Shown one piece after another: positions 5,417 through 64,000 of a stretch of 64,000 nucleotides of DNA. The stretch comes from Ensifer sp. WSM1721 (lineage in GTDB: Bacteria > Pseudomonadota > Alphaproteobacteria > Rhizobiales > Rhizobiaceae). The DNA lies in the NCBI RefSeq assembly GCF_000513895.2, contig NZ_CP165782.1, positions 2,356,001 through 2,420,000 on the forward strand, given 5' to 3'. Position 1 is the first letter of the stretch; each line of letters begins with the position of its first letter. Both the position numbers and the translations under genes were made by a program. The notes under the pieces are model-generated. The model saw only the letters and a program-made list of their open reading frames with translations. It had not been told where the DNA came from and made no database searches.

Positions 5417-5788
5417 GTGATGAATTTTCGCATGGAGCACGCGATGCAGCCTCTCTCGCCTGAAAGACACGAGGAAGCCGAGATAGCAGCCGGTTTCCTT
5501 TCGGCCATGGCAAATCCGAAACGCTTGCTCATCCTCGACTCCCTGGTCAAGGAGGAGATGGCGGTCGGAGCATTGGCCAATAAAGTCGGGCTGAGCCAGT
5601 CGGCTCTTTCCCAGCACCTTTCGAAGCTGCGTGCGCAGAATCTGGTCAGCACCCGTCGTGACGCACAGACGATCTACTATTCGAGCTCTTCTGACGCGGT
5701 CATGAAGATTTTGGGCGCGCTCTCTGAGATCTATGGCGAAGTCACAAGCGCCGTGGAAGAAAAACCCCTCGTCCGCAAGTCGGCGTAA
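5417..5788 (+). CDS. nolR: NolR, ArsR-family repressor of nodulation genes
   Basis: A 123-aa winged-helix repressor that, in Sinorhizobium, lowers expression of nodD and the core nod genes and acts as a wider regulator. The helix-turn-helix is at about residues 50-75 (VGALANKVGLSQSALSQHLSKLR), and the start MNFRMEH is the known NolR start. The frame is full-length and uninterrupted, unlike the frameshifted allele carried by S. meliloti 1021. It lacks the metal-binding cysteines of ArsR-type sensors. A consensus NolR site lies upstream and an intrinsic terminator follows. Confidence 0.93.
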   Translation: MMNFRMEHAMQPLSPERHEEAEIAAGFLSAMANPKRLLILDSLVKEEMAVGALANKVGLSQSALSQHLSKLRAQNLVSTRRDAQTIYYSSSSDAVMKILGALSEIYGEVTSAVEEKPLVRKSA

Positions 5789-5824
5789 CCTCCCAAGACG
5801 CCAGGCCGGACAGACCAGCCTCAC

Positions 5825-5864
5825 AAGCCCCGGCGACCCAGTCGCGCGGGGCTTATGTTTTTTA
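5825..5864 (+). terminator. nolR terminator
   Basis: aagcccc (5825-5831) pairs with ggggctt (5848-5854), with further pairing inside, and is followed by a T-rich tract (atgttttttatt). It lies 37 bases after the nolR stop. Confidence 0.75.
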
Positions 5865-5891
5865 TTGCGCGGCTGCATGCTATTGATCGCT

Positions 5892-6428
5892 ATGGATCAT
5901 GCGGGCGAAATTCTCATACTCACCGGGCCGGCCGGTTCTGGAAAAACCACGACAGCGCAGAAGCTTGCCGGAGAGCCTGGATCGTCGAAGGTCCATCTGC
6001 ATTGCGACGACTTCTGGCACTTCATCAAGAACGGAGCGAGCCCGCCCTATCTGCCTGAAGCGCGTGAGCAAAACATCCTTGTGGTCGATGTTTTGACGAA
6101 GGTGGCCGCGGCGTACGCCGATGGTGGTTATTTTGTCGTGGTAGACGGCATTGTCGGACCTTGGTTCTTGGAACCATTCAAGAAGATCTCAGCGCCGCTG
6201 CACTACGTCGTTCTACGTCCACCGCTCGATGTCGCGATCCGGCGTTGCCAGGAGCGTGGCGGGGACACCTTGACCGACCCCGGGCCTATCACGGAGCTGT
6301 ACCGACAGCTCTCATGGCTGGGGCCGCTTGAGCGGCATGTTCTGTCAACCAACGGACACAGTCGGGACGACACCCTGAGGGCGGTGATCGAGGCCGTGAA
6401 AAGCGGGTCGTTTCGCCTGCCGACATAA
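5892..6428 (+). CDS. Small P-loop kinase/ATPase of unknown substrate
   Basis: A 178-aa cytoplasmic protein with a Walker A motif (GPAGSGKTTTAQKL) near residue 15. HLHCDDFWHF follows near residue 40, a pattern seen in zeta-toxin-like, shikimate-kinase-like and chloramphenicol phosphotransferase-like kinases. A conserved VVDGIVGPWF lies mid-protein, and a lid-like basic region (RRCQERGG) is near 120. No antitoxin-like partner is adjacent, so a toxin role is not supported. I chose the ATG at 5892; an in-frame ATG at 5877 is the alternative. The gene follows the nolR terminator and is probably transcribed alone. Confidence 0.75.
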   Translation: MDHAGEILILTGPAGSGKTTTAQKLAGEPGSSKVHLHCDDFWHFIKNGASPPYLPEAREQNILVVDVLTKVAAAYADGGYFVVVDGIVGPWFLEPFKKISAPLHYVVLRPPLDVAIRRCQERGGDTLTDPGPITELYRQLSWLGPLERHVLSTNGHSRDDTLRAVIEAVKSGSFRLPT

Positions 6429-6578
6429 CAAATAGGCGAGCTCCCACGAACCAGCTTCGCAAGCACCGCGGTCATCATGCATGCCCTGCAACACGGCAGC
6501 TTCGAGCATGTGTGCAGCCGAGCATGGTGCTACCCGAATTGCGACAGTTCATGGTGTGGGACGCGATCGACCGCAGGC

Positions 6579-6606
6579 TTGACGCTTATCGGCGCGCTGA
6601 TAGTTT
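6579..6606 (+). promoter_or_regulatory. Possible promoter with TATC-N8-GATA palindrome
   Basis: TTGACG (6579-6584) and TAGTTT (6601-6606) are spaced 16 bases apart. The inverted repeat TATC-N8-GATA (6587-6602) lies across the spacer and -10. This would suit a repressed promoter for the aminotransferase gene. Apart from this, the gap 6429-6674 shows nothing further. Confidence 0.35.
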
Positions 6607-6674
6607 GACCAACAGGTAAAAGAATCCGGCTTAAGCCATCGCAGCATGGGCAGAATCCACCGAGGAGAACCGAC

Positions 6675-8003
6675 ATGTCGAACCGCCTGAACACCACGCC
6701 GAACGATCTGCGCGCCTTCTGGATGCCGTTCACCGCCAACCGGCAATTCAAGAAGGAACCGCGCCTCTTCGTCGGCGCCAAGGACATGTACTACACGACG
6801 CATGACGGCAGGACGGTGCTCGATGGAACGGCCGGCCTCTGGTGCGTCAATGCCGGCCATTGTCGGCCGAAGATTACCGAGGCAATCCGCGAGCAGGCGG
6901 GAGAACTCGACTATGCGCCAGCGTTCCAGCTCGGTCACCCGAAGGCATTCGAGCTCGCCAATCGGCTCGTCGACATCGCGCCCGAAGGCCTGAACCACGT
7001 TCTCTACACCAATTCCGGCTCGGAATCGGTCGATACGGCCCTCAAGGTGGCGCTTGCCTATCACCGTGCCAAGGGCAACGGCTCGCGCTTTCGCCTCATC
7101 GGCCGCGAGCGCGGCTATCACGGCGTCAACTTCGGCGGCATCTCGGTCGGCGGCATCGTTGCCAACCGCAAGATGTTCGGCACGCTTCTGACCGGCGTCG
7201 ACCATCTGTCGCACACGCACCTGCCGGGCAAGAACGCGTTTACCCGCGGCGAGCCGGAGCACGGCGCCGATCTCGCCGACGAATTGGAACGGATTGTCAC
7301 GCTGCACGACGCCTCGACCGTCGCGGCCGTCATCGTCGAACCGGTGGCGGGCTCGACCGGCGTGCTCATCCCGCCGAAGGGCTATCTTCAGAGGCTGCGT
7401 GACATCTGCACCAAGCACGGCATCCTGTTGATCTTCGACGAGGTTATCACCGGTTATGGGCGCCTCGGCACGCCCTTTGCCGCCCAATATTTCGACGTGA
7501 AACCGGACATCATCACCACCGCCAAGGGGCTCACCAACGGGGTGATCCCGATGGGCGCGGTCTTCGTCACTTCCGAAATCCACGATGCCTTCATGACCGG
7601 ACCGGAGCACCTGATCGAGTTCTTCCACGGCTACACCTATTCCGGCAACCCGATCGCATCCGCAGCCGCGCTCGGAACGCTCGACACCTACAAGGAAGAA
7701 GGGCTTTTGACGCGCGCCGCCGATCTCGCCTCCTATTGGGAAGAAGCGCTGCATTCGCTCAAGGACTGCCCGCATGTGATCGACATCCGCAATATCGGCC
7801 TGATCGGCGCGATCGAGCTCCAGCCGATCGCCGGCGAGCCGACGAAGCGCGCCTTCTCCGCCTTCCTGAAAGCCTACGAGAAGGGCCTGTTGATCCGGAC
7901 GACCGGCGACATCATCGCGCTGTCGCCGCCGCTGATCATCGAAAAGCGCCAGATCGACGAGCTCTTCGATAAACTGCGCGACGTTCTGAAGAACAACATC
8001 TGA
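6675..8003 (+). CDS. Class III aminotransferase, probable omega-amino acid:pyruvate type
   Basis: A 442-aa PLP enzyme of aminotransferase fold type I. The PLP-lysine segment is [15 protein letters not shown] near residue 285, preceded by the conserved [14 protein letters not shown]. The N-terminal [19 protein letters not shown] and the [13 protein letters not shown] motif are characteristic of beta-alanine (omega-amino acid) pyruvate aminotransferases, which move an omega amino group to pyruvate. A GGAG ribosome binding site precedes the ATG. An adenine deaminase gene follows about 90 bases downstream on the same strand. The exact amino donor cannot be read from sequence. Confidence 0.85.
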
Positions 8004-8026
8004 GATTGGCCGCTCAAATCTCCCGG

Positions 8027-8054
8027 CCCTTTCCCCGCATGCGGGGAGAGGGTT
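8027..8054. repeat. RIME1-type hairpin fragment
   Basis: The segment ccctttccccgc-at-gcggggagaggg is a GC-rich palindrome identical in type to the central hairpin of the RIME1-like elements at 28313 and 52202. It lies between the aminotransferase and adenine deaminase genes and could act as a transcript-stabilising or terminating stem. Confidence 0.7.
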
Positions 8055-8092
8055 ATTGTCATGAACAAACGTCGAAGAGCGGGGTGCAGGGG

Positions 8093-9790
8093 ATGTCTGA
8101 AGCGCTGGAACGATTCATCGATCAGGGCGTTGGCCGCGAGCCGGCGGACATCGTGCTCAAGGGCGGGCGGTTCTTCGATCTCGTCACGGGCGAACTCGTC
8201 GCTTCCGACATCGCCATCTCCGGCGACCGGATCGTCGGCACCTGCGGCGGTTATCAGGGGCGCGAGGAGATCGACATCTCCGGCCTGACCGTCGTTCCCG
8301 GCTTCATCGATACGCACTTGCACATCGAATCCTCGCTCGTCACTCCCCACGAGTTCGACCGCTGCGTCCTGCCGCTCGGGATCACCACCGCCATCTGCGA
8401 TCCTCATGAGATCGCCAATGTTCTCGGCACCGAGGGCATCCAGTTCTTCCTGGATTCGGCGATGGAAACGATCATGGACATCCGAGTCCAGCTTTCCTCC
8501 TGCGTGCCGGCGACGCATCTCGAAACATCCGGCGCCGACCTGCCGGTCGAGCGGCTCGTGCCCTTCCGCCACCACCCGAAAGTGATCGGCCTCGCCGAGT
8601 TTATGAATTTCCCCGGCGTCGTCCACAAGGATCCGGTGTGTCTGGCGAAGCTCGATGCCTTCCAGAACGGCCACATCGACGGCCATGCGCCGCTCCTGCG
8701 CGGCAAGGAGCTGAACGGCTACCTCGCGACCGGCATCCGAACCGACCACGAATGCACGAGTGCGGAGGAGGCGCTCGAAAAGATCCGCAAGGGCATGCAC
8801 ATCCTCGTGCGCGAAGGCTCCGTCTCGAAGGACTTGCATGCGCTGATGCCGATCATCACCGAGCGGCTGTCGCCTTATCTCGCGCTCTGCACCGACGACC
8901 GGAATCCGCTCGACATCGCCGAACAGGGCCATCTCGACCACATGATCCGCACGGCGATCGCGGCCGGCGTGGAGCCGCTCGCCATCTATCGCGCCGCCTC
9001 CATCTCGGCCGCGCGCGCCTTCGGCCTCCGCGACCGCGGCCTTGTGGCGCCCGGCTGGCGCGCCGACCTCGTCGTCGTCGACAGCCTGGAAAACTGCAAG
9101 GCTCAGATGGTCTTTTCCGCCGGCAGACGGGTGAGTGATGCACTCTTCGCCGGGCGAAAGCCGGTCGAGCCGGTGGGGCTCGACAGCGTCAGGGCGCGCG
9201 AGGTGAAGGCCGCCGACTTCGCCATTCCCTACACCGAAGGCGAGACCTCCGTAATCGGCGTGCTGCGCGGCAAGATCATCACCGAGCACCGCCGTTACCG
9301 CCTGCCCGCAGAGGGCAACCAGACCGGCGTCGATCTCGGCCGCGATATCATCAAGGTCGCGGTTATCGAACGCCACGGCATCAATGGCAATCACGCGAAC
9401 GGCTTCGTCCAGGGTTTCGGCCTGAAGAAGGGCGCGATCGCCTCCACCGTCGGGCACGACAGCCACAACATCTGCGTCGTCGGCGTCAGCGACGAAGATA
9501 TGGCGCTCGCCGCCAATCGGCTCAGCGAGATCAAGGGTGGCTTCGTCGTCGTCGAAGACGGCAGGGTCACGGGGGAGATCGCGCTTCCGGTCGCCGGGCT
9601 GATGAGCCTCGAACCCCATGAACGAGTGCGCGACACCCTGCATCACCTGCGTCAGGCAGCCTTCGCGCTCGGCGCAACGCTTGAGGAGCCCTTCCTGCAG
9701 CTCGCCTTCCTGCCGCTGCCGGTCATTCCGCACCTGAAGATTTCCGATCGTGGGCTCGTAGATGTGGATAAATTCGCCTTGATCGGCTGA
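8093..9790 (+). CDS. ade: Adenine deaminase
   Basis: A 565-aa amidohydrolase that converts adenine to hypoxanthine and ammonia in purine salvage or catabolism. The metal site motif [16 protein letters not shown] lies near residue 70, followed by [11 protein letters not shown], and the C-terminal domain carries [10 protein letters not shown]. The length fits bacterial Ade proteins. I chose the ATG at 8093 ([12 protein letters not shown]) because a GCAGGGG ribosome binding site precedes it and the extra upstream codons derive from the repeat. Its product feeds xanthine dehydrogenase; xdhAB are encoded some 17 kb away in this window. Confidence 0.93.
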
Positions 9791-9866
9791 GGCTGCCCTC
9801 TCGATCAACCCCTCCGGGCCGTCGCTGCTGTCCGGCGCTCGTACCCGGAGAAAGCTAGCCTCTCCC

Positions 9867-11513
9867 TCACCGCAGCCTTCCGCAGAAGACGTCGAGCTCG
9901 CCGAGCGTGATCGTGTTGTTCGCAAAGAGGGGGGCAAAGCCGGGCATCGGCAGCGGCTGGGTGACCCGCATGTTGACCGAAAGTTGAACCGTCTGCGGTT
10001 CCCGCGTCAGGTTGAAGACGAACAGCAGCCGCTCGCCGCCGCCTTCTCTGGTGAAAGCCAGGACATCCTGGTTGAACACAAGGAAGGCCATATCCCCATC
10101 GATCAGCGGCGCGTGCAGGCGACGAAAGGCGAGCGTGCGACGATAGTGCTCCAGCACCGACTCCGAAACGCCTTCCTGCGCATTGACCGCCAGCATTCGC
10201 TGTTCATCGCGCACCGGCAGCCACGGGATGCCGGTGGAGAAGCCGGCATTCGTCAGTTCCTTCTCCCACACCATCGGTGTGCGGCATCCGTCGCGACCGG
10301 CGAAGGCGGGCCAGAAGCGGATGCCATAGGGATCCCGTAGTTCCTCGAAGGCAAGTTCCGCTTCCGGCAGCCCCAGTTCCTCGCCCTGATAAAGGCATAT
10401 CGAGCCGCGGAGCGTGGCCAGCAGCGAGATAGCAAGCTTCGCCACCCGGCTCCGATCGGCTTCGCGAAGCGCAAAACGGCTGACGTGGCGCATCACGTCG
10501 TGATTGGAAAAGGCCCAGCAGATCCAACCGTCCTTGACGGTTACTACGGAATTTTCGACGCAACGGCGAATGTGCCGCGCCGTGAATTCCGGCCCGAGAA
10601 GGTCGAAGGTATAGCACATATTGAGCTTGTCACCGCCGCTCGTATAGGCGGCGACGGTCTGCAGCGAGCGGGCGCCGTCGCCGACCTCGCCCACTGTCGC
10701 GCGGCCGCCATATTCATCGAGCAGCGCCCGCAACCGGCGCAGGAAGACGATGTTTTCCGGCTGGGTCTTGTCGTAAATGTGGTCTTGCATCCCGTAGGGA
10801 TTGACGTCGGGCGCATCTCGGCTTGTAGCTTCGGGATCCGGTACGAGCGGCGGATTGTCCCTGAGAAGCCGGTCATGGAAATAGAAATTCGCCGTATCGA
10901 GCCGGAACCCGTCGACGCCGCGGTCGAGCCAGAAGCGGACCGTCGAGAGGACCGCTTCCTGAACCTCGGGATTGTGGAAATTGAGGTCAGGCTGCGACGA
11001 CAGGAAATTGTGCAGGTAGTATTGCCTGCGCACGCCGTCCCATTCCCAGGCCGGGCCGCCGAAGATCGAGAGCCAGTTGTTCGGCGCCGTACCGTCCGGT
11101 TTGGGGTCGGCCCAGACGTACCAATCCGCCTTGGCATCGGTCCCGCTCGAGCGGCTCTCCACGAACCACGGGTGACGGTCGGACGTGTGCGAGATCACCT
11201 GGTCGATGATCACCTTCAGCCCAAGCCGGTGCGCCTCCGCAAGCATGTCGTCGAAATCCGCGAGCGTGCCGAACATCGGATCGACGTCGCAATAATCCGA
11301 GACGTCGTAGCCCATGTCCGCCTGCGGCGACGTGAAGAAAGGCGACAGCCAGATGGCATCGACGCCGAGCGAAGCGATATGGGAAAGGCGCCGGGTTATT
11401 CCGCGCAGGTCGCCGATGCCGTCCCCATCCGTGTCCTGGAACGACCGCGGATAGACCTGATAGATCACCGCGCCGCGCCACCAATCGTCGCCTGCCCTCG
11501 ATGCAATCGCCAT
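9867..11513 (-). CDS. GH13 alpha-glucosidase
   Basis: A 548-aa glycoside hydrolase of family 13 acting on alpha-linked glucose disaccharides or oligosaccharides. It is cytoplasmic (no signal peptide). The catalytic nucleophile is in DGFRLDTANF (about residue 205), the acid/base in TVGEVGD (about 270) and the transition-state stabiliser in FSNHDVMRH (about 335). The N-terminus WWRGAVIYQVYPRSFQDTDGDG is the usual start of oligo-1,6-glucosidase/alpha-glucosidase proteins. No sugar transporter is adjacent, unlike the agl operon described in S. meliloti, so this may be a second, stand-alone enzyme. It converges on adenine deaminase. Confidence 0.88.
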   Translation of the reverse strand: MAIASRAGDDWWRGAVIYQVYPRSFQDTDGDGIGDLRGITRRLSHIASLGVDAIWLSPFFTSPQADMGYDVSDYCDVDPMFGTLADFDDMLAEAHRLGLKVIIDQVISHTSDRHPWFVESRSSGTDAKADWYVWADPKPDGTAPNNWLSIFGGPAWEWDGVRRQYYLHNFLSSQPDLNFHNPEVQEAVLSTVRFWLDRGVDGFRLDTANFYFHDRLLRDNPPLVPDPEATSRDAPDVNPYGMQDHIYDKTQPENIVFLRRLRALLDEYGGRATVGEVGDGARSLQTVAAYTSGGDKLNMCYTFDLLGPEFTARHIRRCVENSVVTVKDGWICWAFSNHDVMRHVSRFALREADRSRVAKLAISLLATLRGSICLYQGEELGLPEAELAFEELRDPYGIRFWPAFAGRDGCRTPMVWEKELTNAGFSTGIPWLPVRDEQRMLAVNAQEGVSESVLEHYRRTLAFRRLHAPLIDGDMAFLVFNQDVLAFTREGGGERLLFVFNLTREPQTVQLSVNMRVTQPLPMPGFAPLFANNTITLGELDVFCGRLR

Positions 11514-11656
11514 CGCTATCCCTCTGTTCGGCTATTCCAGAAACAGATGTATCTTCCAGCATCGCCTGCGTAAACGCCACTTGCAACATTCGCTTGCCGG
11601 AACGACGGCACACCGCTAACGCATTGTGCATTGCGCGACGGAAAAGGAGGAGCAAA

Positions 11657-12583
11657 ATGGCAGGCAGCATGCTTTCGATCGGCGAATGCATGGTCGAACT
11701 GATGCAGGCGGAGGGCGGATTGCTGCGCAAGGGCTATGCGGGCGACACATTCAACACCGCCTATTACGCGCGCCTTTTCCTGCCGAGCGATTGGGCGGTC
11801 GAATATCTGACCGCGGTCGGCACCGATCTGGTGTCGAGCGAAATGCTCGCCTTCATCGAGAGCACCGGCGTCGGCACGGCGCATATCCCGAGGATCGAAG
11901 GCCGCATGCCGGGCCTCTACATGATCCACCTCAAGGATGGCGAACGCAGCTTCTCCTATTGGCGCTCGACCTCCGCCGCCAAGCTGCTCGCCGACGATCC
12001 GGAACGATTGAGAGCGGCGATCGCGACATCGGACGTCGTCTTCTTCTCCGGCATCACCCTGGCGATCCTTTCGCCGAACGCCGTCGAGACGCTGCTGTCG
12101 GAACTGCGGCGGGCAAAGGCTGGCGGCAAGCGGATCGTCTTCGATCCGAACATCCGGCCGCGCCTTTGGGACGATGCGACGAGGATGCGCGCCACGATTG
12201 AGGCCGGTGCCCGGGCAGCGACAATGATCCTGCCGAGCTATGACGACGAGGCGACGCATTTCGGCGACGCCTCGATCGACGCGACGATCGAGCGCTACCG
12301 GGCGCTCGGCGCCGAGAACGTCGCGGTCAAGGATGGCGCCAATGGCGTCACGCTGCAATTTGGCAGAGAGGAGCGCCGGCATATCCCGGCCGCGTCCGTT
12401 TCCCGCATCGTCGACACCACCAGCGCCGGCGACAGTTTCAACGGTTCGTTCCTCGCCCGCTTGGTGGCCGGCGACAGCCCGGCCGAGGCAGCCGCCTTCG
12501 CCGCACGCGTGGCCGCCGCCGTCATCGGTCATCATGGGGCGCTGGTGGCGCGGGAGAAGCTGATGGTGGACCAGATCGATTGA
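11657..12583 (+). CDS. kdgK: 2-dehydro-3-deoxygluconokinase (PfkB family)
   Basis: A 308-aa sugar kinase of the PfkB/ribokinase family, most like KdgK, which phosphorylates 2-keto-3-deoxygluconate for cleavage in the Entner-Doudoroff route. The second PfkB signature, DTTSAGDSFNGSFLARL, near residue 255 holds the catalytic Asp. Substrate-binding residues follow the KdgK pattern near GDTFNTAYYARLF at about 30. A strong AAGGAGGA precedes the ATG at 11657. Divergent from the alpha-glucosidase gene, with about 140 bases between. Family membership is firm; the exact substrate is inferred. Confidence 0.85.
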   Translation: MAGSMLSIGECMVELMQAEGGLLRKGYAGDTFNTAYYARLFLPSDWAVEYLTAVGTDLVSSEMLAFIESTGVGTAHIPRIEGRMPGLYMIHLKDGERSFSYWRSTSAAKLLADDPERLRAAIATSDVVFFSGITLAILSPNAVETLLSELRRAKAGGKRIVFDPNIRPRLWDDATRMRATIEAGARAATMILPSYDDEATHFGDASIDATIERYRALGAENVAVKDGANGVTLQFGREERRHIPAASVSRIVDTTSAGDSFNGSFLARLVAGDSPAEAAAFAARVAAAVIGHHGALVAREKLMVDQID

Positions 12584-12611
12584 GGGCTACAGTCGGTTCT
12601 CCCCTCACCCT

Positions 12612-12715
12612 ACAGCGCCGTGCGTCTTTTCAGACGCACAAAGGACGCTGTAGCACTTTGAATGGCTGCATGTTTTTGTCCTTAAATCGGGTACGATTTA
12701 AGGAAACATGCAGTA
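12612..12715 (+). repeat. ~100-bp double-hairpin intergenic element
   Basis: Hairpin 1 pairs acagcg (12612-12617) with cgctgt (12646-12651) and contains the inner stem gtgcgtc/gacgcac. Hairpin 2 pairs ctgcatgttt (12666-12675) with aaacatgcag (12704-12713) around the inner stem tccttaaatcg/cgatttaagga. The two are joined by agcactttgaatgg. It is flanked by RIME1-like sequence on both sides (cccctcaccct on the left, a right end at 12716-12762), suggesting insertion into a RIME1. Confidence 0.85.
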
Positions 12716-12762
12716 GCCCTCCGCACGGGCGAAGGTGGCCGGCAGGCTGGATGAGCGGCGAA
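12716..12762 (+). repeat. Degenerate RIME1 right end
   Basis: The segment gggcgaaggtggccggcagg and the following ctggatgagcgg match the right end of the RIME1-like element at 28313-28442. It directly abuts the double-hairpin element. Confidence 0.6.
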
Positions 12763-12769
12763 CTTTCCC

Positions 12770-14203: not shown

Positions 14204-14224
14204 CTCGAAATCCGTTCTTGCGCT

Positions 14225-14275
14225 GGAGCGGGAAGAAGAAAAGTGTGAAGCGGTCTTCCGCCCGCATCCCGCTCC
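14225..14275. repeat. ~50-bp palindromic repeat (copy 1)
   Basis: The ends ggagcggga (14225-14233) and tcccgctcc (14267-14275) are perfect inverted repeats around a variable centre containing the cttccgcccgcatcc core. Related copies lie at 39625, 44536 and 54174. Confidence 0.7.
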
Positions 14276-14333
14276 GGCTCTTTAGAGTCGATCATGATGA
14301 TTTCAGGTTCATGCGACCCGAAATCGTCGTGAC

Positions 14334-15002: not shown

Positions 15003-15087
15003 GTCCTGTCCCGGCTGCCCGGCCTTCATGCAAAGAGTTGGCGCCTTCTACCCGATTTTGCGCCGCTTGTAAGGGGGCCGACGTCAT

Positions 15088-15675: not shown

Positions 15676-15877
15676 ATCACACCCGATCTCGAAACGTTGC
15701 CCGTCTAAAGCGAGCGCAAGAGCTGCTCGCTCGTCCCGCTTTAATAGTTTGTTCACCGTCGAATAGCGCTATCCCCCGCGAATTTCCAGCGAGATCAAAG
15801 GATTGCCGCATTGTTGAAGAAGGGACGGCACGAAGTAAATCGTCGCAGTTGCCGATTCTCCCCAAGAAGCCTCCCGA

Positions 15878-16879: not shown

Positions 16880-16883
16880 TCGG

Positions 16884-51293: not shown

Positions 51294-51309
51294 GGTTCAG
51301 GAGAAGAAA

Positions 51310-52164: not shown

Positions 52165-52201
52165 GCGTCGGTCAGCAAATGGGCGGTCCCCGCCAGTATT
52201 T

Positions 52202-52332: not shown

Positions 52333-52378
52333 TAATTTGGAGGCTTAGAGTTGAAAGCAGTCGCCCCTCGGTCACCCA

Positions 52379-54124: not shown

Positions 54125-54173
54125 CTCTTCCTTCCTTCAGGCCCGCGGAACCGGGCGGGAGCACGTCGGCGTA

Positions 54174-54214
54174 AGAGCGGGATGAGTGCGCGGTTTTCCG
54201 CCGCATCCCGCTCT
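54174..54214. repeat. ~50-bp palindromic repeat (copy 4)
   Basis: agagcgggatg (54174-54184) and catcccgctct (54204-54214) are perfect 11-bp inverted repeats around gcgcggttttccgcc. It lies in the chvE operon between the dehydratase and the aldehyde dehydrogenase genes. Confidence 0.75.
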
Positions 54215-54221
54215 CAACTCT

Positions 54222-55655: not shown

Positions 55656-55727
55656 GGGCCTTAAGCCTCCTTGTCTTCCTGTCGCATTCGGCCGCCCGTC
55701 GCGACCGCGTCTGCTGTTACAGATATA

Positions 55728-56723
55728 TCAGAGCTGATGTATGGCGATCTCTTCCTCCGCGGCGATGGCCAGCGGGTTGCGCAGCGGCAGGCCGAATTCA
55801 TTGGCCTCGATCTCGAATACGTCGCCCTCTTCCGTCCGGACGCCGTCGCCAAAGGAGAGCGTCGCCGTGCCGAACATGTGCACATGCACATCGCCGGGCA
55901 TGCGGAAGAGGACATATTTGAAATGGTGATATTCGAGATTGGCGAAGCTGTGCGACATGTTCGCCTCGCCGGAAAGGAAGGGCTTCTCCCACAGAACCTT
56001 TCCGCCCCGCAGGATGCGCGACGTGCCGCGGATGTCGTCGGGAGCGGTCCCGATGCGGATTTCCGGCCCGAAGCTTGCCTGCCTGAGCTTCGAATGTGCC
56101 AGCCAGAGATAATTGACCCGCTCGGTCTTGTGATCGGAGAACTCGTTGGCGACGGCAAAGCCGATGCGATAGGGCACTCCCTTGTCGGAGATGACATAGA
56201 TGCCCGCCATTTCCGGCTCCTCGCCGCCGTCCTCCGCGAAGGAGGGCGACGTCAGCGGCTCACCCGGAGCGACTGCAGCCGTGCCATTGCCCTTGTAGAA
56301 CCATTCCGGTTGGACGCCCTTTTCGCCCGGCTTCGGCTTGCCGCCCTCGAGGCCCATCCGGAACATCTTCATCGAATCGGTCAGCGTTTCTTCCGCCGCC
56401 TCGGCCGTCTTCTTGTGCATCGCGTCGCGCGTCGCCGCGGAGCCGAGATGCGTCAAGCCCGTCCCGGTGAGGTGCAGGTGGGCGGGGTCGGGATGGGTGA
56501 TCGGCGGGAGCAGCCGCCCTTCAGTGTAGGCCTGATCGAGATCAATCGCTTCGCCGAGGCCCTTGGCCTCGATCACTTCCTTGAGGCTCTTGCCGCCATT
56601 GGCAGCTTCCATCGCGAGCGCGTAGACGCTCTCCGCTCCCTTGACGGCACGCGCCGTTTCGCCCGGCGCCCGCACCGCGACTGCAACCGATCCGTCTTGC
56701 TTCCTGACCTGAGAAATCAGCAC
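55728..56723 (-). CDS. gguC: GguC/AraD1-family FAH-fold protein
   Basis: A 331-aa fumarylacetoacetate hydrolase-fold protein called GguC in Agrobacterium, and in some bacteria an L-2-keto-3-deoxyarabonate dehydratase. PAHLHLTGTGLTHLGSAATRD and FNLEYHHFKYVLFRMPGDVHVHMFGTATLSF are typical. That activity would link the arabonate dehydratase and the aldehyde dehydrogenase in the same operon. I chose the GTG at 56723 (product MLISQVRKQDG) because family members begin there; AAGGACAGGAA precedes it. Confidence 0.87.
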   Translation of the reverse strand: MLISQVRKQDGSVAVAVRAPGETARAVKGAESVYALAMEAANGGKSLKEVIEAKGLGEAIDLDQAYTEGRLLPPITHPDPAHLHLTGTGLTHLGSAATRDAMHKKTAEAAEETLTDSMKMFRMGLEGGKPKPGEKGVQPEWFYKGNGTAAVAPGEPLTSPSFAEDGGEEPEMAGIYVISDKGVPYRIGFAVANEFSDHKTERVNYLWLAHSKLRQASFGPEIRIGTAPDDIRGTSRILRGGKVLWEKPFLSGEANMSHSFANLEYHHFKYVLFRMPGDVHVHMFGTATLSFGDGVRTEEGDVFEIEANEFGLPLRNPLAIAAEEEIAIHQL

Positions 56724-56877
56724 GTTCCTGTCCTTCCTGATCGCGTTAGCTCCGGCCACGCCCTCCCCTGAGGAAAGGCAATGCGCCGCCCTAAGGGTGG
56801 CACGCGCCACCCAGTTCCGGCGGCCGCCTCGGCCGCCCGTTCATGTCGCGGTCGTTGTGAGCTGACCGGAGATCCGA
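56724..56877. other. gguB-gguC spacer
   Basis: About 150 bases inside the operon. It contains GC-rich inverted repeats (gccgccctaagggtggc and ggcggccgcctcggccgcc) that would form stems in the mRNA. No gene seen. Confidence 0.4.
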
Positions 56878-58092
56878 TCAGCCCTTGCCCTTGTTCTTGT
56901 TGTAGACGTCGAAGAAGACGGCTGCGAGGAGCACGAGACCCTTGATGAGCTGCTGGTAATCGATGCCGATGCCCATGATCGACATGCCGTTGTTCATCAC
57001 GCCCATGATGAAGGCGCCGATGACCGCACCGGTGATCTTGCCGACGCCGCCCGAGGCGGAGGCCCCGCCGATGAAGCAGGCCGCGATGACGTCGAGCTCG
57101 AAACCGACGCCGGCCTTCGGGGTTGCCGAATTCAGGCGCGCGGTGATGATCATGCCGGCAAGTGCAGCGAGCACGCCCATATTGACGAAGGCGTAAAAGG
57201 TCAGCCGCTCGGTATTGATGCCGGAGAGCTTGGTGGCCTTCTCGTTGCCGCCCATGGCGTAAATCCGGCGGCCGATCGTCGAGCGCGTCGTGATGAAGGT
57301 GTAGAGGGCGATCAGCACGCCCATCACGATGAGCACGTTCGGCAGCCCGCGATAGGTCGAAAGCTGGAAGCCGATGAACAGGGCGACAAGGCCGATGACC
57401 GCCATCTGGACCGCGAAGAACACGAATGGCTCGTTCTCGGTGCCGTGCTGCTCGTTGATACGGCGGTTGCGAAGCCCTGCAAAGATCGCGTAGCCGACCA
57501 GCGCCAGCACCGCCACGAGCGCCACCATGTTCTTGATGACCTCGGGGCTCGGGCTGAGGAAGTACAGAAAATCAGGAACGAAGCCGGTCGAAAGGATTTG
57601 GAAGTCCTTCGGGAACGGCCCGATCGGGCGGCCGCCGAGGACGACGTAAGTCATTCCGCGGAACACCAACATACCGGCGAGCGTGACGATGAAGGACGGG
57701 ATCTTCTGATAGGCCACCCAGTAGCCCTGCGCTGCCCCCATGATGCCGCCGACCACCAGACAGGCGGGAACGACGACGAAGGCCGGCAGACCCCATTTGA
57801 CGAGCATGATCGCCGAAATCGCTCCGACAAAGGCGACGATCGAGCCGACCGACAGATCGATATGACCTGCCACGATGATCAGCAGCATGCCCAGCGCCAT
57901 GATGACGATGAAGGAGTTCTGCAGCACCAGGTTGGTGATGTTGACCGGCCTGAAGAGCACGCCGTTGGTGACGAACTGGAAGAACAGCATGATGATCACG
58001 AGCGCGACCAGCAGGCCGTATTCGCGAACGTTGTTCCTGAGGTAGTCCCCGATCGAGGGTTTGGTGGTGTGAGTGCTCGTATCGACGACCAT
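56878..58092 (-). CDS. gguB: Sugar ABC transporter permease GguB
   Basis: A 404-aa inner-membrane permease of the ribose/xylose type with ten or so hydrophobic segments. MALGMLLIIVAGHIDLSVGSIVAFVG near residue 75 and the closing FIGGASASGGVGKITGAVIGAFIMGVMNNGMSIMG are the family hallmarks. With GguA and ChvE it should import galactose, arabinose and related sugars. Its ATG overlaps the gguA stop by one base (TAATG). Confidence 0.93.
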   Translation of the reverse strand: MVVDTSTHTTKPSIGDYLRNNVREYGLLVALVIIMLFFQFVTNGVLFRPVNITNLVLQNSFIVIMALGMLLIIVAGHIDLSVGSIVAFVGAISAIMLVKWGLPAFVVVPACLVVGGIMGAAQGYWVAYQKIPSFIVTLAGMLVFRGMTYVVLGGRPIGPFPKDFQILSTGFVPDFLYFLSPSPEVIKNMVALVAVLALVGYAIFAGLRNRRINEQHGTENEPFVFFAVQMAVIGLVALFIGFQLSTYRGLPNVLIVMGVLIALYTFITTRSTIGRRIYAMGGNEKATKLSGINTERLTFYAFVNMGVLAALAGMIITARLNSATPKAGVGFELDVIAACFIGGASASGGVGKITGAVIGAFIMGVMNNGMSIMGIGIDYQQLIKGLVLLAAVFFDVYNKNKGKG

Positions 58093-59627
58093 TAGTGTTT
58101 CTCCCCTGAACGCATGATGGCACGCATGATCGATTCCTGGCTTGCTTCCTCCTTGGAAAGCTCCGCCACGATGCGTCCCTCGTTCATGACATAGATGCGA
58201 TCGCAGGTTCCGAGCAGCTCCGGCATCTCCGACGAGATCATCAGGATGCCTTTGCCCTCGGCCGCGAGTTGGTTGATGATGGTGTAGATTTCATACTTCG
58301 CGCCGATGTCGATGCCGCGCGTCGGCTCGTCGAGTATGAGGACTTCGGGACTGGTGAACAGCCACTTGGAGAGCACGACTTTCTGCTGATTGCCGCCGGA
58401 AAGGTTCACCGTCTCCTGGTAGATCGAATGCGAGCGGATCCTGAGCTTCGAGCGGTAGTCGGAGGCGATCTTCCGCTCCTTGCGCTCGTCGATGACGCCG
58501 TTCGATGCGACCGAATGCAGGTTGGCGAGCGTCGTGTTCTGCATGATGTTGTTGATCAGGACGAGGCCCAGTTGCTTCCGGTCCTCGGTGACGTATGCAA
58601 GCCCGGCCTTGATCGCCTTCGGGATGGTGCTCACGTCCACTGGCTGGCCGCGCATCGTCACCTCACCGGTGATCTTGTGGCCCCACGACTTGCCGAAAAT
58701 GCTCATTGCCGTTTCGGTGCGGCCGGCGCCCATGAGCCCGGCAATGCCGACGACCTCGCCGGCGCGAACCTTGAAGCTGACATCGTGCAGGAACTGCCTA
58801 TCGCGGTGATGTTGATGAAAGACGTTCCAGTTCTTCACCTCGAGCAGCGTATCGCCGATCTTCGGTTCGCGCGGCGGATAACGGTCTTCCATCGCGCGCC
58901 CAACCATGCCCTTGATGATCCGGTCTTCGCTGATGTCTTCCTTGTGACAGTCGAGCGTTTCGACGGTACCGCCGTCGCGCAGTATGGTGATCTGGTCGGC
59001 GACCTTTTTGATCTCGTTCAGCTTGTGCGAGATGATGATCGACGTCATGCCCTGGGTGCGGAATTCCATGAGGAGCCGCAGCAGCGCGTCGGAATCATTC
59101 TCGTTCAGCGACGCGGTCGGCTCGTCGAGGATCAAGAGCCGCACCCTCTTGGAAAGAGCCTTGGCGATCTCGACAAGCTGCTGCTTGCCGACGCCGATGT
59201 CGGTGATCAGCGTCGATGGAGACTCGCTGAGGCCCACCTTCTTCAAGAGCTCTTGCGTGCGAGAGAAGGTCTGCGGCCAGTGGATGACGCCGTTGCTGGC
59301 GATTTCATTGCCAAGAAAGATGTTCTCGGCAATGGACAGCAGCGGAACGAGCGCCAGTTCCTGATGGATGATGATGATGCCGAGATGTTCGCTGTCGGCG
59401 ATCGTGCTGAAGCGGCGGGCCTCGCCGTCATAATAGATCTCGCCCTCGTAGGTCCCGGCGGGATAGACGCCGCTCAGCACCTTCATCAAGGTCGACTTGC
59501 CGGCGCCATTTTCCCCGACGAGGGCATGGATTTCGCCTTCGCGGACCTTGAACGAAACGTTGTCCAGCGCCTTGACGCCCGGAAACGTCTTCGTAATGCC
59601 CCGCATTTCCAGAATGATGTTGTCCAT
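58092..59627 (-). CDS. gguA: Sugar ABC transporter ATPase GguA
   Basis: A 511-aa ATPase with two ABC domains in tandem, as in sugar transporters. The first has [16 protein letters not shown] near residue 38 and [15 protein letters not shown] near 165; the second has [16 protein letters not shown] near 295, [15 protein letters not shown] near 405 and [19 protein letters not shown]. It energises uptake through GguB. About 190 bases with a hairpin separate it from chvE. Confidence 0.94.
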
Positions 59628-59773
59628 AATCAGCTATTCCAGCGGCAGTCTGCGAGAGACTAGACTCTCTTCCCCGCTGCATGATTCCCCGGATCGTTGC
59701 CGATCCAGGGAACGATGAGCAGTTCAACTATTACAGCGACATGGGTGCGCCTGCAAACGCGCGTCGCATCGAG

Positions 59774-59806
59774 CAAAGGGGCTCGCGGGGCAACCGCGAA
59801 CCCCTC
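59774..59806 (-). terminator. Hairpin between chvE and gguA
   Basis: On the minus strand ggggttcgcgg pairs with ccgcgagcccc (one mismatch), followed by tttgctc. It lies just after the chvE stop and probably lowers read-through or protects the chvE message, giving more binding protein than transporter. Confidence 0.65.
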
Positions 59807-59815
59807 GGAACCGGA

Positions 59816-60883
59816 TCAGTTGTTGATCTGATCTTCCGTGTAGTAGCCGGAGCCGACGAGAATTTCCTTGGCGTTCGTCTTGTCGACCGAAACGGGCTTC
59901 AGCAGGTAGGACGGAACGACCTTGACGCCGTTTTCATAGGTCTTGGTGTCGTTCACTTCCGGCTCCTTGCCGTCCATGATGGCGTTGACCATGTTGACGG
60001 TGACCTTGGCGAGTTCGCGGGTGTCCTTGAAGACCGTCGAGTACTGTTCGCCGGCGAGGATCGACTTGACCGAGGGAAGTTCCGCGTCCTGGCCGGTGAC
60101 GATCGGCATCGGCATGTCGCCGGAGCCGTAGCCGACGCCCTTCAGAGCGGAAATGATGCCGATCGACAGGCCGTCATAGGGCGACAGAACGCCATCGACC
60201 TTGGCATCGGTGTAGGTGGACGACAGCAGGTTTTCCATGCGGGCCTGGGCAACCGCACCGTCCCAGCGCAGCGTGCCGACCTGGTCCATGCCCATCTGGC
60301 CGGACTTGACGACGATCTTGCCGCTGTCGATCAGCGGCTGCAGGACCGACATGGCGCCGTCGTAGAAGAAGAAGGCGTTGTTGTCGTCCGGCGAACCGCC
60401 GAAAAGTTCGATGTTCTTCGGCTCCTTGGCTTCGTCGAGCTTCAGGCCTTCGACGAGCGAGGTCGCCTGCAGGACGCCGACCTGGAAGTTGTCGAAGGTC
60501 GCATAGTAATCGACATTGCCCGAGTCGCGGATCAGGCGGTCGTAAGCGATGACCTTGACGCCGGCATCGGCCGCCTTCTGCAGGATGTCGGAGAGGGTCG
60601 TGCCGTCGATGGCGGCGATGACGAGAACCTTCGCGCCCTTCGTCACCATGTTCTCGATCTGCGCGAGCTGGTTCGGAATGTCGTCGTCGGCGAACTGCAG
60701 ATCCGGCGTGTAGCCGGCTTCCTTGAACAGCTTCTCCATGGTCTCGCCATCGGAGATCCAGCGGGTCGACGTCTTCGTCGGCATCGAAATGCCGACGGTG
60801 CCCTTGTCCTGGGCGAATGCCGGCGCAGCGAAGGACGCGACGGTCATCGCCGCGGCTGCGAGAAGCGAAGTAAACAATTTCAT
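59816..60883 (-). CDS. chvE: ChvE-type periplasmic sugar-binding protein
   Basis: A 355-aa binding protein with a signal peptide (residues 1-24, cleavage after PAFA). [42 protein letters not shown] and [19 protein letters not shown] are typical of ChvE, which binds arabinose, galactose and glucose; in Agrobacterium it also signals to VirA. It starts the operon chvE-gguABC-dehydrogenase-dehydratase. The regulator gbpR is divergent upstream. A GGGAGAGA ribosome binding site precedes the ATG. Confidence 0.94.
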
Positions 60884-61156
60884 CAGATCTCTCCCTGAGT
60901 GTTGAAGCCGGCGAGCCGAGGCCGCCGTCCGATGCGCAGCGATCCACCGTCGCGGAGAATGACCCCCGGTGGTGGCTCAAGATAAAGGAAGTCCTCCCCG
61001 TCTTACATACTTCCGCATGCGCTGGCGCATAGGCTCGGAAACTGGAATCAATTGCCATAACTGTCAAATACAATAATGCATTTCATACATACCAAATTTG
61101 ATATACGACTCTTAAAGAGTGTGATTTATGAATCCCTTGAAGACAGGACCGCGAAA
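60884..61156. promoter_or_regulatory. chvE/gbpR divergent regulatory region
   Basis: A 270-base AT-rich stretch between chvE and the LysR gene. It holds short dyads such as tggaatcaattgcca (61040-61054) and accaaatttgata (61088-61100) that could bind GbpR. No single one stands out as the activator site. Confidence 0.45.
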
Positions 61157-62140
61157 TTGAACCTCGAAACCAAGCCGAGCACCGCCATCCCGGCGGGCGA
61201 ACCGTTCGACAGCGGCCTCTTCCGGTCGGGATTGAAGATAAACCACCTCAGGCTCATCCTGGCAATCGACGACCACCGCCGGATCAGCGCCGCCGCCGAT
61301 TCGCTCGGCATTTCGCAGCCGGCCGCCTCGCGCATGCTCGCCGAGATCGAGGCGATTGTGAAGGCGCCGATCTGCGCGCGCGTTGCGCGCGGCGTCGAGC
61401 TCACGCCCTACGGCGAAGCGCTGGCCAGGCGGGCGCGCACGATTTTTCTGGAGCTGCGCGAAGCCGCGCGCGAGATCAACGAGCTGAAGACGGGCAGCGG
61501 CGGTTCGGTGTCGCTCGGCTCCGTCACCGGCCCCGCTCTCAACCTCGCGGTGCCTGCAATCCGCCAGGTCTCCACCGCCTATCCCGGCATTGAGATCAAT
61601 GTGCAGATCGACAACAGCAATGTGCTGACGCGGGAACTCCTGGCGGCGCGCCACGATTTCGTCGTCGGCCGCATCCCCGACGATCTCAATCCCCGGCTCT
61701 TCAATCTGGTCGAGATCGGTTTCGAGGAGGTCTGCCTGATCGTTCGCGAGGGCCATCCCCTGCTCGACAAGGCGTCCGCCAGCGCCGACGACCTGCCTGG
61801 CTACGACTGGGTCTTCCAGCCGCCCGGCACGCTTCTACGCCGCGCGGTCGAGGACAGTTTCGTTTCCGCCGGCGTCCGGCTCCCCGCCACGGTCATCAAC
61901 ACCTCCTCGATCATCCTGACGCTCTCGATCGTCCGCAACACCAACGCAATCGCCCCCGTCGCCCTCGATGTCGCCAAGCTCGTGGCGGGGAACGGCACGC
62001 AGGCCGGCGAGATCCGCATTCTGCCGACCGAGTTTCCGATCCGCATCAAACCCTATGGGCTGATCACCGCCGAGGGCCGAGCGCTTCCCCCGAGTGCGAA
62101 GCTGCTCTACGACCTGATCCTGAAGCAAAGCCGGACATGA
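61157..62140 (+). CDS. gbpR: LysR-family regulator GbpR
   Basis: A 327-aa LysR-type regulator. LKINHLRLILAIDDHRRISAAADSLGISQPAASRMLAEIEA is the helix-turn-helix (about 30-70), with the rarer GbpR/GalR-like order. By analogy with Agrobacterium GbpR it activates chvE in response to galactose or arabinose. It is divergent from chvE. I chose the TTG at 61157 (product MNLETKPSTAIP) because AGGA lies nine bases before it; an ATG at 61076 would add 27 odd residues and has no ribosome binding site. Confidence 0.85.
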   Translation: MNLETKPSTAIPAGEPFDSGLFRSGLKINHLRLILAIDDHRRISAAADSLGISQPAASRMLAEIEAIVKAPICARVARGVELTPYGEALARRARTIFLELREAAREINELKTGSGGSVSLGSVTGPALNLAVPAIRQVSTAYPGIEINVQIDNSNVLTRELLAARHDFVVGRIPDDLNPRLFNLVEIGFEEVCLIVREGHPLLDKASASADDLPGYDWVFQPPGTLLRRAVEDSFVSAGVRLPATVINTSSIILTLSIVRNTNAIAPVALDVAKLVAGNGTQAGEIRILPTEFPIRIKPYGLITAEGRALPPSAKLLYDLILKQSRT

Positions 62141-62198
62141 TCAGGCCCGCATAATGTTGAGCGGCCAAGATCGGCTGAATTCAGCTTGGAGAGGCTCG

Positions 62199-62651
62199 AT
62201 GTTCGGCAAGTCAGTGTTTCAATCGGTGCTCGAGCGCCTGAGAGCCGATGAGGACGAGGACGTGCCGGACGAAAGCGCCGTAGACGGGTCGTGGCGCGCC
62301 CCGATCGAGCCCTCTGCCGTTATCATCGAGACACCGGCACGAACGACGACGCCTCTCCGCACCGTTGAATGCGCCTATCGCGAACTGGCACCGGTCGATG
62401 AAGTCGAGCCGCCCGTCATGCCCGAACATCTGAAGCGCACGAGCCTCGCCGAGGTTGCCGCCGAGCTTGCGCTCGATGGAAAGGATACCGCTCTGACGCT
62501 CGCCGCCAAGCGCCGGCGCTTCGCGGCGGCGAATCATCCGGATCGCCTGCCTGCGGAGTTCCGGCCCAACGCCACACTTCGCATGAAACTCGCCAACATG
62601 CTTATCGACGAGGCATCGCGACGGCTGGAATGGACCGGTACGGCGAAATAG
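62199..62651 (+). CDS. Small J-domain-like protein
   Basis: A 150-aa protein whose C-terminal half looks like a J domain: LAEVAAELALDGKDTALTLAAKRRRFAAANHPDRLP has the HPD tripeptide near residue 127 that in DnaJ proteins triggers DnaK ATPase. The N-terminal half is acidic and unstructured-looking (RADEDEDVPDESAVDG). There is no Gly/Phe or zinc domain. It may direct DnaK to a special client. A GGAGAGG ribosome binding site precedes the ATG at 62199. It is a single gene after gbpR. Confidence 0.72.
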   Translation: MFGKSVFQSVLERLRADEDEDVPDESAVDGSWRAPIEPSAVIIETPARTTTPLRTVECAYRELAPVDEVEPPVMPEHLKRTSLAEVAAELALDGKDTALTLAAKRRRFAAANHPDRLPAEFRPNATLRMKLANMLIDEASRRLEWTGTAK

Positions 62652-62654
62652 CCG

Positions 62655-62882
62655 TCACTTCATCTCGTCGCTCGTCCCGGCCTTTTCTTCCGGTTGCTTC
62701 GGCTTATAAAATATGAGGAGAGTAGCGCCGGCATAGGCGGTGACGATCAGGAAGATCGTCCCCCACATCGTCTGCCCGCCATAAAATTCCACCGCCGTCC
62801 ACACCGCACAGAAGCCAACGATCAGCAGCCGGATCCAGAAAGGCCTGTAGAATGGGTGATCCGGGTCGATGAACTTGATCAT
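62655..62882 (-). CDS. Small membrane protein, function unknown
   Basis: A 75-aa protein with two hydrophobic segments (about residues 17-34 and 38-58) and a charged C-terminus (KPKQPEEKAGTSDEMK). FIDPDHPFYRPFWIRLLI is a recognisable start of a small family I know from rhizobia as hypothetical. It converges on the J-domain-like gene with three bases between. No partner seen. Confidence 0.65.
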   Translation of the reverse strand: MIKFIDPDHPFYRPFWIRLLIVGFCAVWTAVEFYGGQTMWGTIFLIVTAYAGATLLIFYKPKQPEEKAGTSDEMK

Positions 62883-62935
62883 TCCAATGCCTCCGACAAA
62901 CCTGCGCGGCAGGCTGGAACCTCATCTAATCCCAT

Positions 62936-62980
62936 AATTCCTTAAATCGAAACCGATCCAAGCATAAAATCATGCGGGCG
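62936..62980 (-). repeat. Fragment of the double-hairpin element
   Basis: attccttaaatcgaaaccga followed by tccaagcataaaatcatg resembles the reverse complement of hairpin 2 of the ~100-bp element, with a decayed inner stem. The rest is missing. Confidence 0.5.
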
Positions 62981-63046
62981 CCGGCGAACACTGCTCTTGC
63001 ATGGCAAAGAGGCACGATCGGGATGCTTGACGGCGTCCCAGCAAAT

Positions 63047-63060
63047 GGAATAAAAATTCC
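63047..63060. promoter_or_regulatory. IolR operator upstream of idhA
   Basis: GGAATAAAAATTCC is a full match to GGAA-N6-TTCC, the motif reported for IolR in S. meliloti. A degenerate second site, GGCT-N6-TTCC, lies at 63076-63089. Both are about 170-215 bases before the idhA ATG. Apart from these and the repeat fragment, the gap 62883-63260 shows no gene. Confidence 0.75.
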
Positions 63061-63260
63061 GTAATTATAAAAATTGGCTATTTCATTCCGATGCAAGGTC
63101 GGGTGAATGGCACGGGAGGGAGGCGCCGCAACGGCGCGGGAGGAAGAGCACCACAGTCCTCTCATCTTCCCGCGGACATTCCCTCCGCGACGCCTTTGCG
63201 CGATGAGCGTCATCATCGCGCGTCAACCCGGTCGCAAACCGGAATTAAAGGACGATAGAG

Positions 63261-64000
63261 ATGACAGTGAAATTTGGTCTTCTGGGCGCCGGGCGGATCG
63301 GCAAGGTGCACGCGAAAGCCGTCACCGGCAATCCCAACGCGCGCCTCGTCGCCGTTGCCGACGCCTTTCCAGCCGCGGCGGAAGCGATCGCCAACGCCTA
63401 TGGTTGCGAGGTCCGCACGATCGACGAGATCGAGGCGGCGGGCGATATCGATGCCGTGGTGATCTGCACGCCGACGGACACCCATGCAGATCTGATCGAA
63501 CGCTTCGCCCGCGCCGGCAAGGCGATCTTCTGCGAAAAGCCGATCGACCTCGACGTCGATCGCGTCAAGGCCTGCCTGAAGGTGGTTTCCGAAACCAAGG
63601 CGAAGCTGATGGTCGGCTTCAACCGCCGCTTCGACCCGCATTTCATGGCCGTACGCAAGGCGATCGACGATGGCCGGATCGGCGAGGTCGAAATGGTGAC
63701 GATCACCTCGCGCGATCCCGGCGCGCCTCCGGTCGATTACATCAAGCGGTCCGGCGGCATCTTCCGCGACATGACGATCCATGATTTCGACATGGCGCGT
63801 TTCCTGCTCGGCGAAGAGCCGGTTTCCGTCACCGCCACCGCTGCCGTGCTCGTCGACAAGGCGATCGGCGAAGCGGGCGACTACGACAGCGTCTCCGCCA
63901 TCCTGCAGACGGCGTCCGGCAAGCAGGCGATCATCTCGAACTCGCGCCGCGCCACCTATGGCTACGACCAGCGCATCGAGGTGCACGGCTCCAAGGGCGC
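63261..64000 (+). CDS. idhA: myo-Inositol 2-dehydrogenase, N-terminal part (gene runs off the window)
   Basis: The first 246 codons of an NAD-dependent dehydrogenase that oxidises myo-inositol to scyllo-inosose, the entry step of inositol use in rhizobia. FGLLGAGRIGKVHAKAVTGNP is the Rossmann fold, AIFCEKPIDLD near residue 95 has the catalytic Lys, and MTIHDFDMARFLLGEEP near 172 has the catalytic Asp and His pair. The ATG at 63261 begins MTVKFGLLGAG. A perfect IolR site lies upstream. The 3' end is beyond the window. Confidence 0.9.
   Translation, partial: MTVKFGLLGAGRIGKVHAKAVTGNPNARLVAVADAFPAAAEAIANAYGCEVRTIDEIEAAGDIDAVVICTPTDTHADLIERFARAGKAIFCEKPIDLDVDRVKACLKVVSETKAKLMVGFNRRFDPHFMAVRKAIDDGRIGEVEMVTITSRDPGAPPVDYIKRSGGIFRDMTIHDFDMARFLLGEEPVSVTATAAVLVDKAIGEAGDYDSVSAILQTASGKQAIISNSRRATYGYDQRIEVHGSKG

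Follow-up and report, generated by a model that had tools for sequence, protein, structure and literature searches.

The ETR in its ancestral chromosomal position in Ensifer sp. WSM1721, and bacA as a probable site of repeated allele replacement

The window analyzed here is a stretch of 64,000 nucleotides from Ensifer sp. WSM1721 (C1:2356001-2420000 of genome G000, which consists of four contigs and 6,326,810 bp); positions above 64000 are given on the window scale, continuing on the same contig beyond the window end. We conclude, with a probability of about 0.97, that it contains the left 51 kb of the region published as ETR (engA-tRNAArg-rmlC) and the chromosomal flank to its left, that this arrangement is the ancestral one, and that the genome is that of a Sinorhizobium very closely related to E. 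aridi. The ETR is described as a 69-kb stretch that was translocated from the chromosome to pSymB in an ancestor of S. meliloti (PMC5940162), with reported sizes of 69 kb in S. fredii and 129 kb in S. meliloti (PMC12239276) and with essential der and tRNA genes (PMC5940162, PMC4207669). Its genes have ordinary functions: a ribosome GTPase, sugar, purine and glycerol metabolism, and peptide import. The peptide importer gene in it, bacA, has a history of its own and is considered separately below.

The window can be assigned to the main chromosome because its contig, C1 (3,685,908 bp), encodes DnaA (C1:22-1434), while RepC matches are restricted to the other contigs (two on C2, one on C3 and one on C4, none on C1). 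A preliminary description of this DNA had noticed that nolR, choXWV, der/engA, bacA, glpK, bdhA-xdh, chvE and idhA lie together here despite being split between replicons in S. meliloti, and had proposed the ancestral chromosomal arrangement of a block later moved to pSymB. The observation is confirmed, as orthologues of these genes were found in order. The proposal is supported by the dnaA-bearing contig and by the division of the orthologues between the S. meliloti chromosome and pSymB, rather than their being collinear with one replicon of that species. A chromosomal location of the block is thus correct, and it is already known for related bacteria.

At the DNA level, window positions 1-12562 are collinear with the chromosome of S. 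meliloti Ak57 (CP090106.1 2675430-2687795; this 3.72-Mb record, titled 'plasmid pSymB' by its depositors, was used as the Ak57 chromosome). From 12769 the alignment switches to pSymB of S. meliloti ml28 (CP140934.1), which is matched in a single orientation from 485351 down to 365484 (window-scale 81888), with 406752 reached within the window; the match to the Ak57 chromosome resumes at window-scale 81925. For the left flank, 11 S. meliloti chromosomal proteins were tested and each has an orthologue, with the order kept (window 584-12562), and from der (12785-14203 in the protein match) through idhA (63261-64250, extending beyond the window) there are 42 pSymB proteins with ordered orthologues of at least 58% identity. 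Sixteen further pSymB protein queries found no match in the window, including the pSymB neighbors of the block Rrf2 and SfnB, and a few matched distant paralogues only (identity below 45%). The features of the window are as follows.

584..12583: left chromosomal anchor, with tdk (minus strand), choX, choW, choV, a hugZ-like gene, an ArsR-family gene, an ATP-binding protein, an aminotransferase, ade, an alpha-glucosidase (minus strand) and kdgK
within 584..12583: choW and choV, with NCBIfam equivalog matches
about 5444-5788, plus strand: ArsR-family gene taken as nolR, with a chromosomal orthologue in S. meliloti
ending at 12583: kdgK, last gene of the chromosomal anchor
12584..12769: kdgK-der spacer, containing the ETR breakpoint; chromosome alignment ends at 12562, pSymB alignment starts at 12769
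12770..64000: part of the ETR block within the window, from pSymB collinearity and the 42 ordered orthologues
12770..14203, minus strand: der/engA, essential GTPase gene, 93.7% identical to pSymB der
16884..18146, minus strand: bacA, SbmA/BacA-family peptide importer (PF05992, 473 bits)
24159..25652, minus strand: glpK, 93% to pSymB glpK
26007..30804, plus strand: bdhA-xdhA-xdhB, 92, 85 and 92% to the pSymB genes
36139..36272: lldD-uraH spacer, where pSymB of ml28 holds about 26.6 kb (435466-462108) absent here
52379..60883, minus strand: arabinose/multiple-sugar cluster (araD, aldehyde dehydrogenase, araD1, mmsB, mmsA, chvE), 90-97% to the pSymB genes
63261..about 64253, plus strand, cut by the window end at 64000: idhA/iolG, 94% to the pSymB gene

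Because the switch between replicons falls in the kdgK-der spacer, kdgK belongs to the chromosomal side; in S. meliloti Ak57 it is on the chromosome, with the dpp ABC-transporter genes directly after it. The boundary had previously been placed between kdgK and nolR, which is wrong, as the break lies between kdgK and der. The block extends over 12770-81901 (69,132 bp) and is bounded by der and rmlC. Of these 69 kb the window holds about 51 kb, with the right end outside; overall, the interpretation in the preliminary description is partly supported. The rmlC gene ends at 81901 and the chromosomal dppF2 gene follows from 81913, after a gap of 11 bp. Also outside the window, at window-scale 69342-69418 (L013 5342-5418), is a gene for tRNA-Arg with anticodon CCG, which serves CGG codons and is present in the pSymB locus (L016) as well.

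The block therefore has der and rmlC ends, the tRNA-Arg gene and a chromosomal site between kdgK and dppF2. In its engA/der and rmlC ends, its tRNA-Arg gene, the bacA gene inside and the size of 69 kb, it is the same as the ETR of S. fredii NGR234 and S. meliloti pSymB. The chromosomal neighbors are the same too, as kdgK and dppF2 are reportedly named as neighbors of the ETR in the abstract of diCenzo et al. 2013. The S. meliloti and S. medicae counterparts are on pSymB-type replicons, and kdgK and dppF2 are adjacent on the chromosome (those of Ak57 and M103). What differs from the known ETR is that this is a further species and, perhaps, that the empty target site on the chromid is located.

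To follow the block across the genus, Der, KdgK, DppF2 and ChoW were searched in 33 genomes. The der gene is beside kdgK in 20 of these, and in another eight it shares a contig with choW, at a distance of no more than about 10 kb, the best KdgK match being a 58-61% protein elsewhere. (No chromosomal kdgK orthologue is found beside der in G010, G018, G025-G028, G031 and G032.) Chromosomal anchors thus accompany der in 28 of 33 genomes; 22 of the 28 have dppF2 on the contig of der, at a distance of 61.5-144 kb, and dppF2 is on another draft contig in six. In the other five genomes (G003, G013, G014, G015 and G023) a gap of 47-330 bp separates the match to kdgK from that to dppF2, an empty donor site, and der is on another contig, adjoining chromid genes. 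These five derived genomes form one clade with a bootstrap value of 100, whether the tree is built from the chromosomal choXWV flank or from the der side of the ETR, and the replicon of the block needs one change on the tree. One of them, G013, has a profile against ml28 that is nearly that of WSM419, and behaves as S. medicae. A der gene of the pSymB kind is present in 63 Sinorhizobium records of a plasmid collection, including S. kummerowiae and strain M103, which was later named S. prairiense (PMC12574840).

The plasmid collection also holds chromosome-like records, namely CP090106.1 (3.7 Mb), NZ_CP104127.1 (3.5 Mb, titled 'plasmid pM103a') and NZ_CP069303.1 (4.6 Mb). Eight Pseudoalteromonas records in it (NZ_CP032091.1, for example) carry a der gene at 37-38% identity to the query, on replicons of 0.68-0.90 Mb among those listed; this is a possible parallel case of the essential gene on a second replicon.

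On pSymB, the ETR has an iron-ABC ATPase gene on one side and, on the other, a gene for an Rrf2-type regulator and then SfnB. On contig C2 of the window's genome (1.70 Mb), the genes that flank the ETR on pSymB adjoin each other and the site is unoccupied. The empty site is 93 bp long (G000:C2:275432-275524; L200 3433-3525), with the left alignment ending at 3432 and the right one beginning at 3526. Ten genomes gave target-site alignments, covering both sides in seven (an unbroken spacer) and the left side only in three (G007, G009 and G019). The SfnB marker is 1.6-2.0 kb from the permease gene in nine of the 14 non-derived genomes having SfnB.

We propose that in the ancestor of the group of S. 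meliloti, S. medicae, S. kummerowiae and S. prairiense a piece of DNA with the ETR was inserted into the chromid, probably between the iron-ABC ATPase gene and the Rrf2-type regulator gene. The piece would have been linear, ending in the 3' spacers of der and rmlC. The block is bounded by the same two genes on both replicons, which argues against entry as a circle opened somewhere inside and for insertion of a linear piece, or for site-specific joining at the ends. The block on pSymB may then have been enlarged by later insertions. The chromids of S. kummerowiae and S. medicae match the 30-55 kb part of the window over 24.9 and 22.7 kb. Two Ku genes (L016:12236-13950) lie in pSymB block DNA of ml28 for which G000 has no counterpart.

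Movement in the reverse direction, with the block first on the chromid and then passed to the chromosome in other lineages, is very improbable. The split of 28 and five genomes is by itself uninformative on direction. However, kdgK and der are neighbors in the outgroup Shinella sp. PSBB067 (on a 4.6-Mb record), choV/hugZ-type genes are within 10 kb of der at nine loci outside Sinorhizobium, and in all seven of the non-derived genomes aligned on both sides the spacer at the chromid site is uninterrupted. A megaplasmid or chimeric origin of the contig, by which genes of two replicons would only seem to lie together, found no supporting point and is already refuted, since it carries dnaA without repC and the kdgK-der junction recurs in 19 other genomes of the genus and in Shinella.

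A number of results weigh against this account of the block. The SfnB spacing is about 12 kb in three of the non-derived genomes and about 200 kb in one, SfnB is on a different contig in another, and in 14 of the 28 non-derived genomes SfnB had no match at the threshold. Draft contigs carry der in three of the five derived genomes, and there the replicon was read from the neighboring genes. Support is weak (54-96) at the nodes placing the window's species as nearest outgroup, and a 16S search, positive in nine of 14 controls, had no match in G000, so that rRNA gave no help.

In flank distances, E. aridi, G000 and S. saheli are nearest to the derived group (0.168-0.171, against 0.197-0.201 for eight others), a position not seen for them in the ETR piece. 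A published comparison has E. saheli closest to E. aridi (PMC5237526). We considered faster evolution of the block after the move and found no sign of it, as the ratio of derived-to-outgroup distance to near-relative-to-outgroup distance is 1.131 in the flank and 1.137 in the ETR.

An intergenic repeat of about 105 bp, which we take to resemble a RIME-type element, is present at 12610-12716 (in the kdgK-der spacer), 36161-36271 and 42174-42278, and also on pSymB. Excision of the block through this or other palindromic repeats in the kdgK-der, rmlC-dppF2 and kdgK-dppF2 spacers was dropped and remains an idea, because such repeats also occur elsewhere in the window.

The second subject is bacA. 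We consider it quite probable that bacA is a swap locus, that is, a single-copy gene fixed beside der whose reading frame has been replaced nearly from end to end, without its neighbors, at least 17 times among 100 Rhizobiaceae loci, and that the 'rapidly diverged' BacA of S. meliloti is an allele type common to S. kostiense, S. sojae, S. alkalisoli and scattered Agrobacterium, Shinella and Rhizobium. The window's BacA is a full-length member of the SbmA/BacA transporters (residues 84-397 match positions 1-314 of the 315 in the PF05992 profile, at 473 bits), and its best solved relatives are SbmA chains. It is only 58% identical to S. meliloti BacA, whereas most of its neighbors are at 75-97%. 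Against E. coli SbmA, S. meliloti BacA scores 567 bits and the window BacA 488 bits.

The divergence is confined largely to the reading frame. Compared with E. aridi (G004), 58 of 59 flank and ETR genes were found, with a median identity of 97.6% and Der at 99%; bacA is the lowest at 61%, followed by a major facilitator superfamily (MFS) gene at 89.7% and kdgK at 89.8%. In 300-bp bins, G000 and G004 are mostly 92-99% identical outside bacA and 56-76% inside, with a dip to 84-88% in the MFS gene. In 50-bp bins, identity falls at the stop-codon end of bacA and recovers near the start codon (52, 52, 74 and 98 for G007/G006); recovery is more gradual for G000/G004, where identity stays at 76-88%, with a single bin of 62%, as far as about 250 bp upstream. 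Synonymous change at identical residues in G000/G004 is 57% in bacA, against 5-13% in six neighbors. The corresponding values are 55% against 14-28% for G006/G007, 51% against 22-30% for G011/G022 and 53% against 23-39% for L059/L082. The exception is the Shinella pair L052/L063, with 33% in both bacA and MFS.

The gene was found within the fetched stretch at 113 of 114 loci, in about the same place beside der, and 100 Rhizobiaceae loci were kept after removal of repeats. Among 173 pairs with Der at 96% or more, bacA is below 75% in 47; the same is true of none for TPR or pdase, of 2/171 for MFS, 0/171 for map, 0/171 for LLM and 18/173 for nnrU. On a reference tree of der, TPR, map and LLM, a division of BacA into two clusters (54/46) needs at least 17 changes, with one change each for three neighbors outside the tree, nnrU (71/26), pdase (98/1) and MFS (90/1). 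With ten clusters, bacA needs 33-34 changes, nnrU 14-15, and pdase and MFS nine each, nine being the least possible. Other trees gave 17-18 changes for bacA, and leaving out one metagenome-assembly row again gave 17. Shuffled labels average about 33, so the BacA types are not randomly distributed over the tree. All trees of the bacA analysis, here and below, come from quick searches that used no mixture model.

The controls have limits: nnrU is not clean, given its 18 divergent close pairs and its 14-15 changes, and the two-cluster divisions of pdase and MFS are lopsided. TPR, with 2, 2, 4 and 9 changes at 2, 3, 5 and 10 clusters, is part of the tree and thus not an independent control.

Within the genus, four BacA types need six changes over 32 genomes, where the minimum possible is three. 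The BacA data reject Sinorhizobium as one clade (approximately unbiased test, p-AU 1.4e-7), while the flank tree supports it at 100. Conversely, carriers of S. meliloti-type BacA form one group in the BacA tree (99), which is rejected on the flank tree (p-AU 7e-65). The nearest named relatives of S. meliloti BacA are those of S. kostiense (88%), S. sojae (87%) and S. alkalisoli (87%), among the best 120 of 8000 candidates scored.

S. meliloti itself has two bacA alleles, limited to the open reading frame and common to sister species. Strains ml28 and FSM-MA share 95-100% identity in the surroundings of bacA and 82-91% inside the gene. The same dip, from 97-99% to 82-88%, is seen in the sister genomes G014 and G015, and FSM-MA compared with G015 is at 94-98% there. 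The plasmid collection was surveyed for bacA through 60 of 64 records, which are not independent strains. Among the 60 listed, identity to FSM-MA BacA is 99.3-100% in 15 S. meliloti records and 86.9-87.3% in 30, with one S. meliloti-labelled record at 96.1%; it is 99.3% in two S. kummerowiae records, 96.1-96.2% in three of the M103 group and 85.4-85.5% in nine of S. medicae. An 82.8% BacA in S. meliloti CP130047.1 was rejected as a third allele: its DNA is 99-100% identical to ml28, the gene is unannotated, and we take it as a frameshifted reading.

A review states that S. meliloti BacA 'has rapidly diverged', citing diCenzo 2017 (PMC9037385), and fast amino-acid change of one inherited gene could be put forward instead of replacement. 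The Shinella pair L052/L063, where synonymous change in bacA is no higher than in MFS, would agree with this. We find it improbable nonetheless, given the synonymous excess in the other four pairs and the BacA data that reject a Sinorhizobium clade supported by the neighboring genes. Replacement explains the relations of S. meliloti BacA more simply, because it is 87-88% identical to the proteins of S. kostiense, S. sojae and S. alkalisoli and has the higher SbmA score. Hidden paralogy, in which old side-by-side bacA paralogues were differentially lost, is equally improbable. Several deep BacA types do exist, but each of the 33 genomes has just one strong SbmA/BacA match, which lies near der in every case; in 28 of them a weaker second match (79-89 bits, frames of 609-697 aa) is another protein. 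At least 17 changes would also demand many parallel losses.

Replacement of single-gene alleles by homologous recombination at selected loci is a general process in other bacteria. Like those cases, bacA is one sharply different gene in close genomes, with edges near the gene ends and the same position; unlike them, it encodes a peptide importer on which symbiosis with Medicago depends, is present in single copy, and is found in this state in several Rhizobiaceae genera. BacA is reported to import both the host's nodule-specific cysteine-rich (NCR) peptides and phazolicin, the latter toxic to S. meliloti (PMC12003926, PMC10128002), and proton-driven import of antimicrobial peptides has been demonstrated for S. 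meliloti BacA (PMC10128002). A likely driver of such swaps is opposing selection from host NCR peptides and from BacA-imported peptide antibiotics such as phazolicin. Such opposed selection would favor exchange of whole bacA versions by homologous recombination, and the flanks may later have been restored by recombination within the species. In the portion of PMC12003926 available to us, transfer between orders is treated, with no mention of replacement at this locus. Literature searches returned no title on bacA replacement; two key papers (diCenzo 2013 and 2017) were outside their coverage, and we make no claim that it is unpublished.

An occupied chromosomal site and an unoccupied chromid site in one genome represent the 'before' state of a textbook move of essential genes to a second replicon, and each of the two sites is located with a precision of about 100-200 bp. 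As for bacA, it decides the survival of S. meliloti in Medicago nodules, where its versions are not interchangeable: BacA from S. fredii or R. leguminosarum cannot substitute for that of S. meliloti on alfalfa (PMC9037385, PMC9219011). If whole versions are indeed exchanged between species, host and antibiotic specificity could shift in one step, and the natural pairs of S. meliloti alleles with nearly identical flanks make such a change directly testable.

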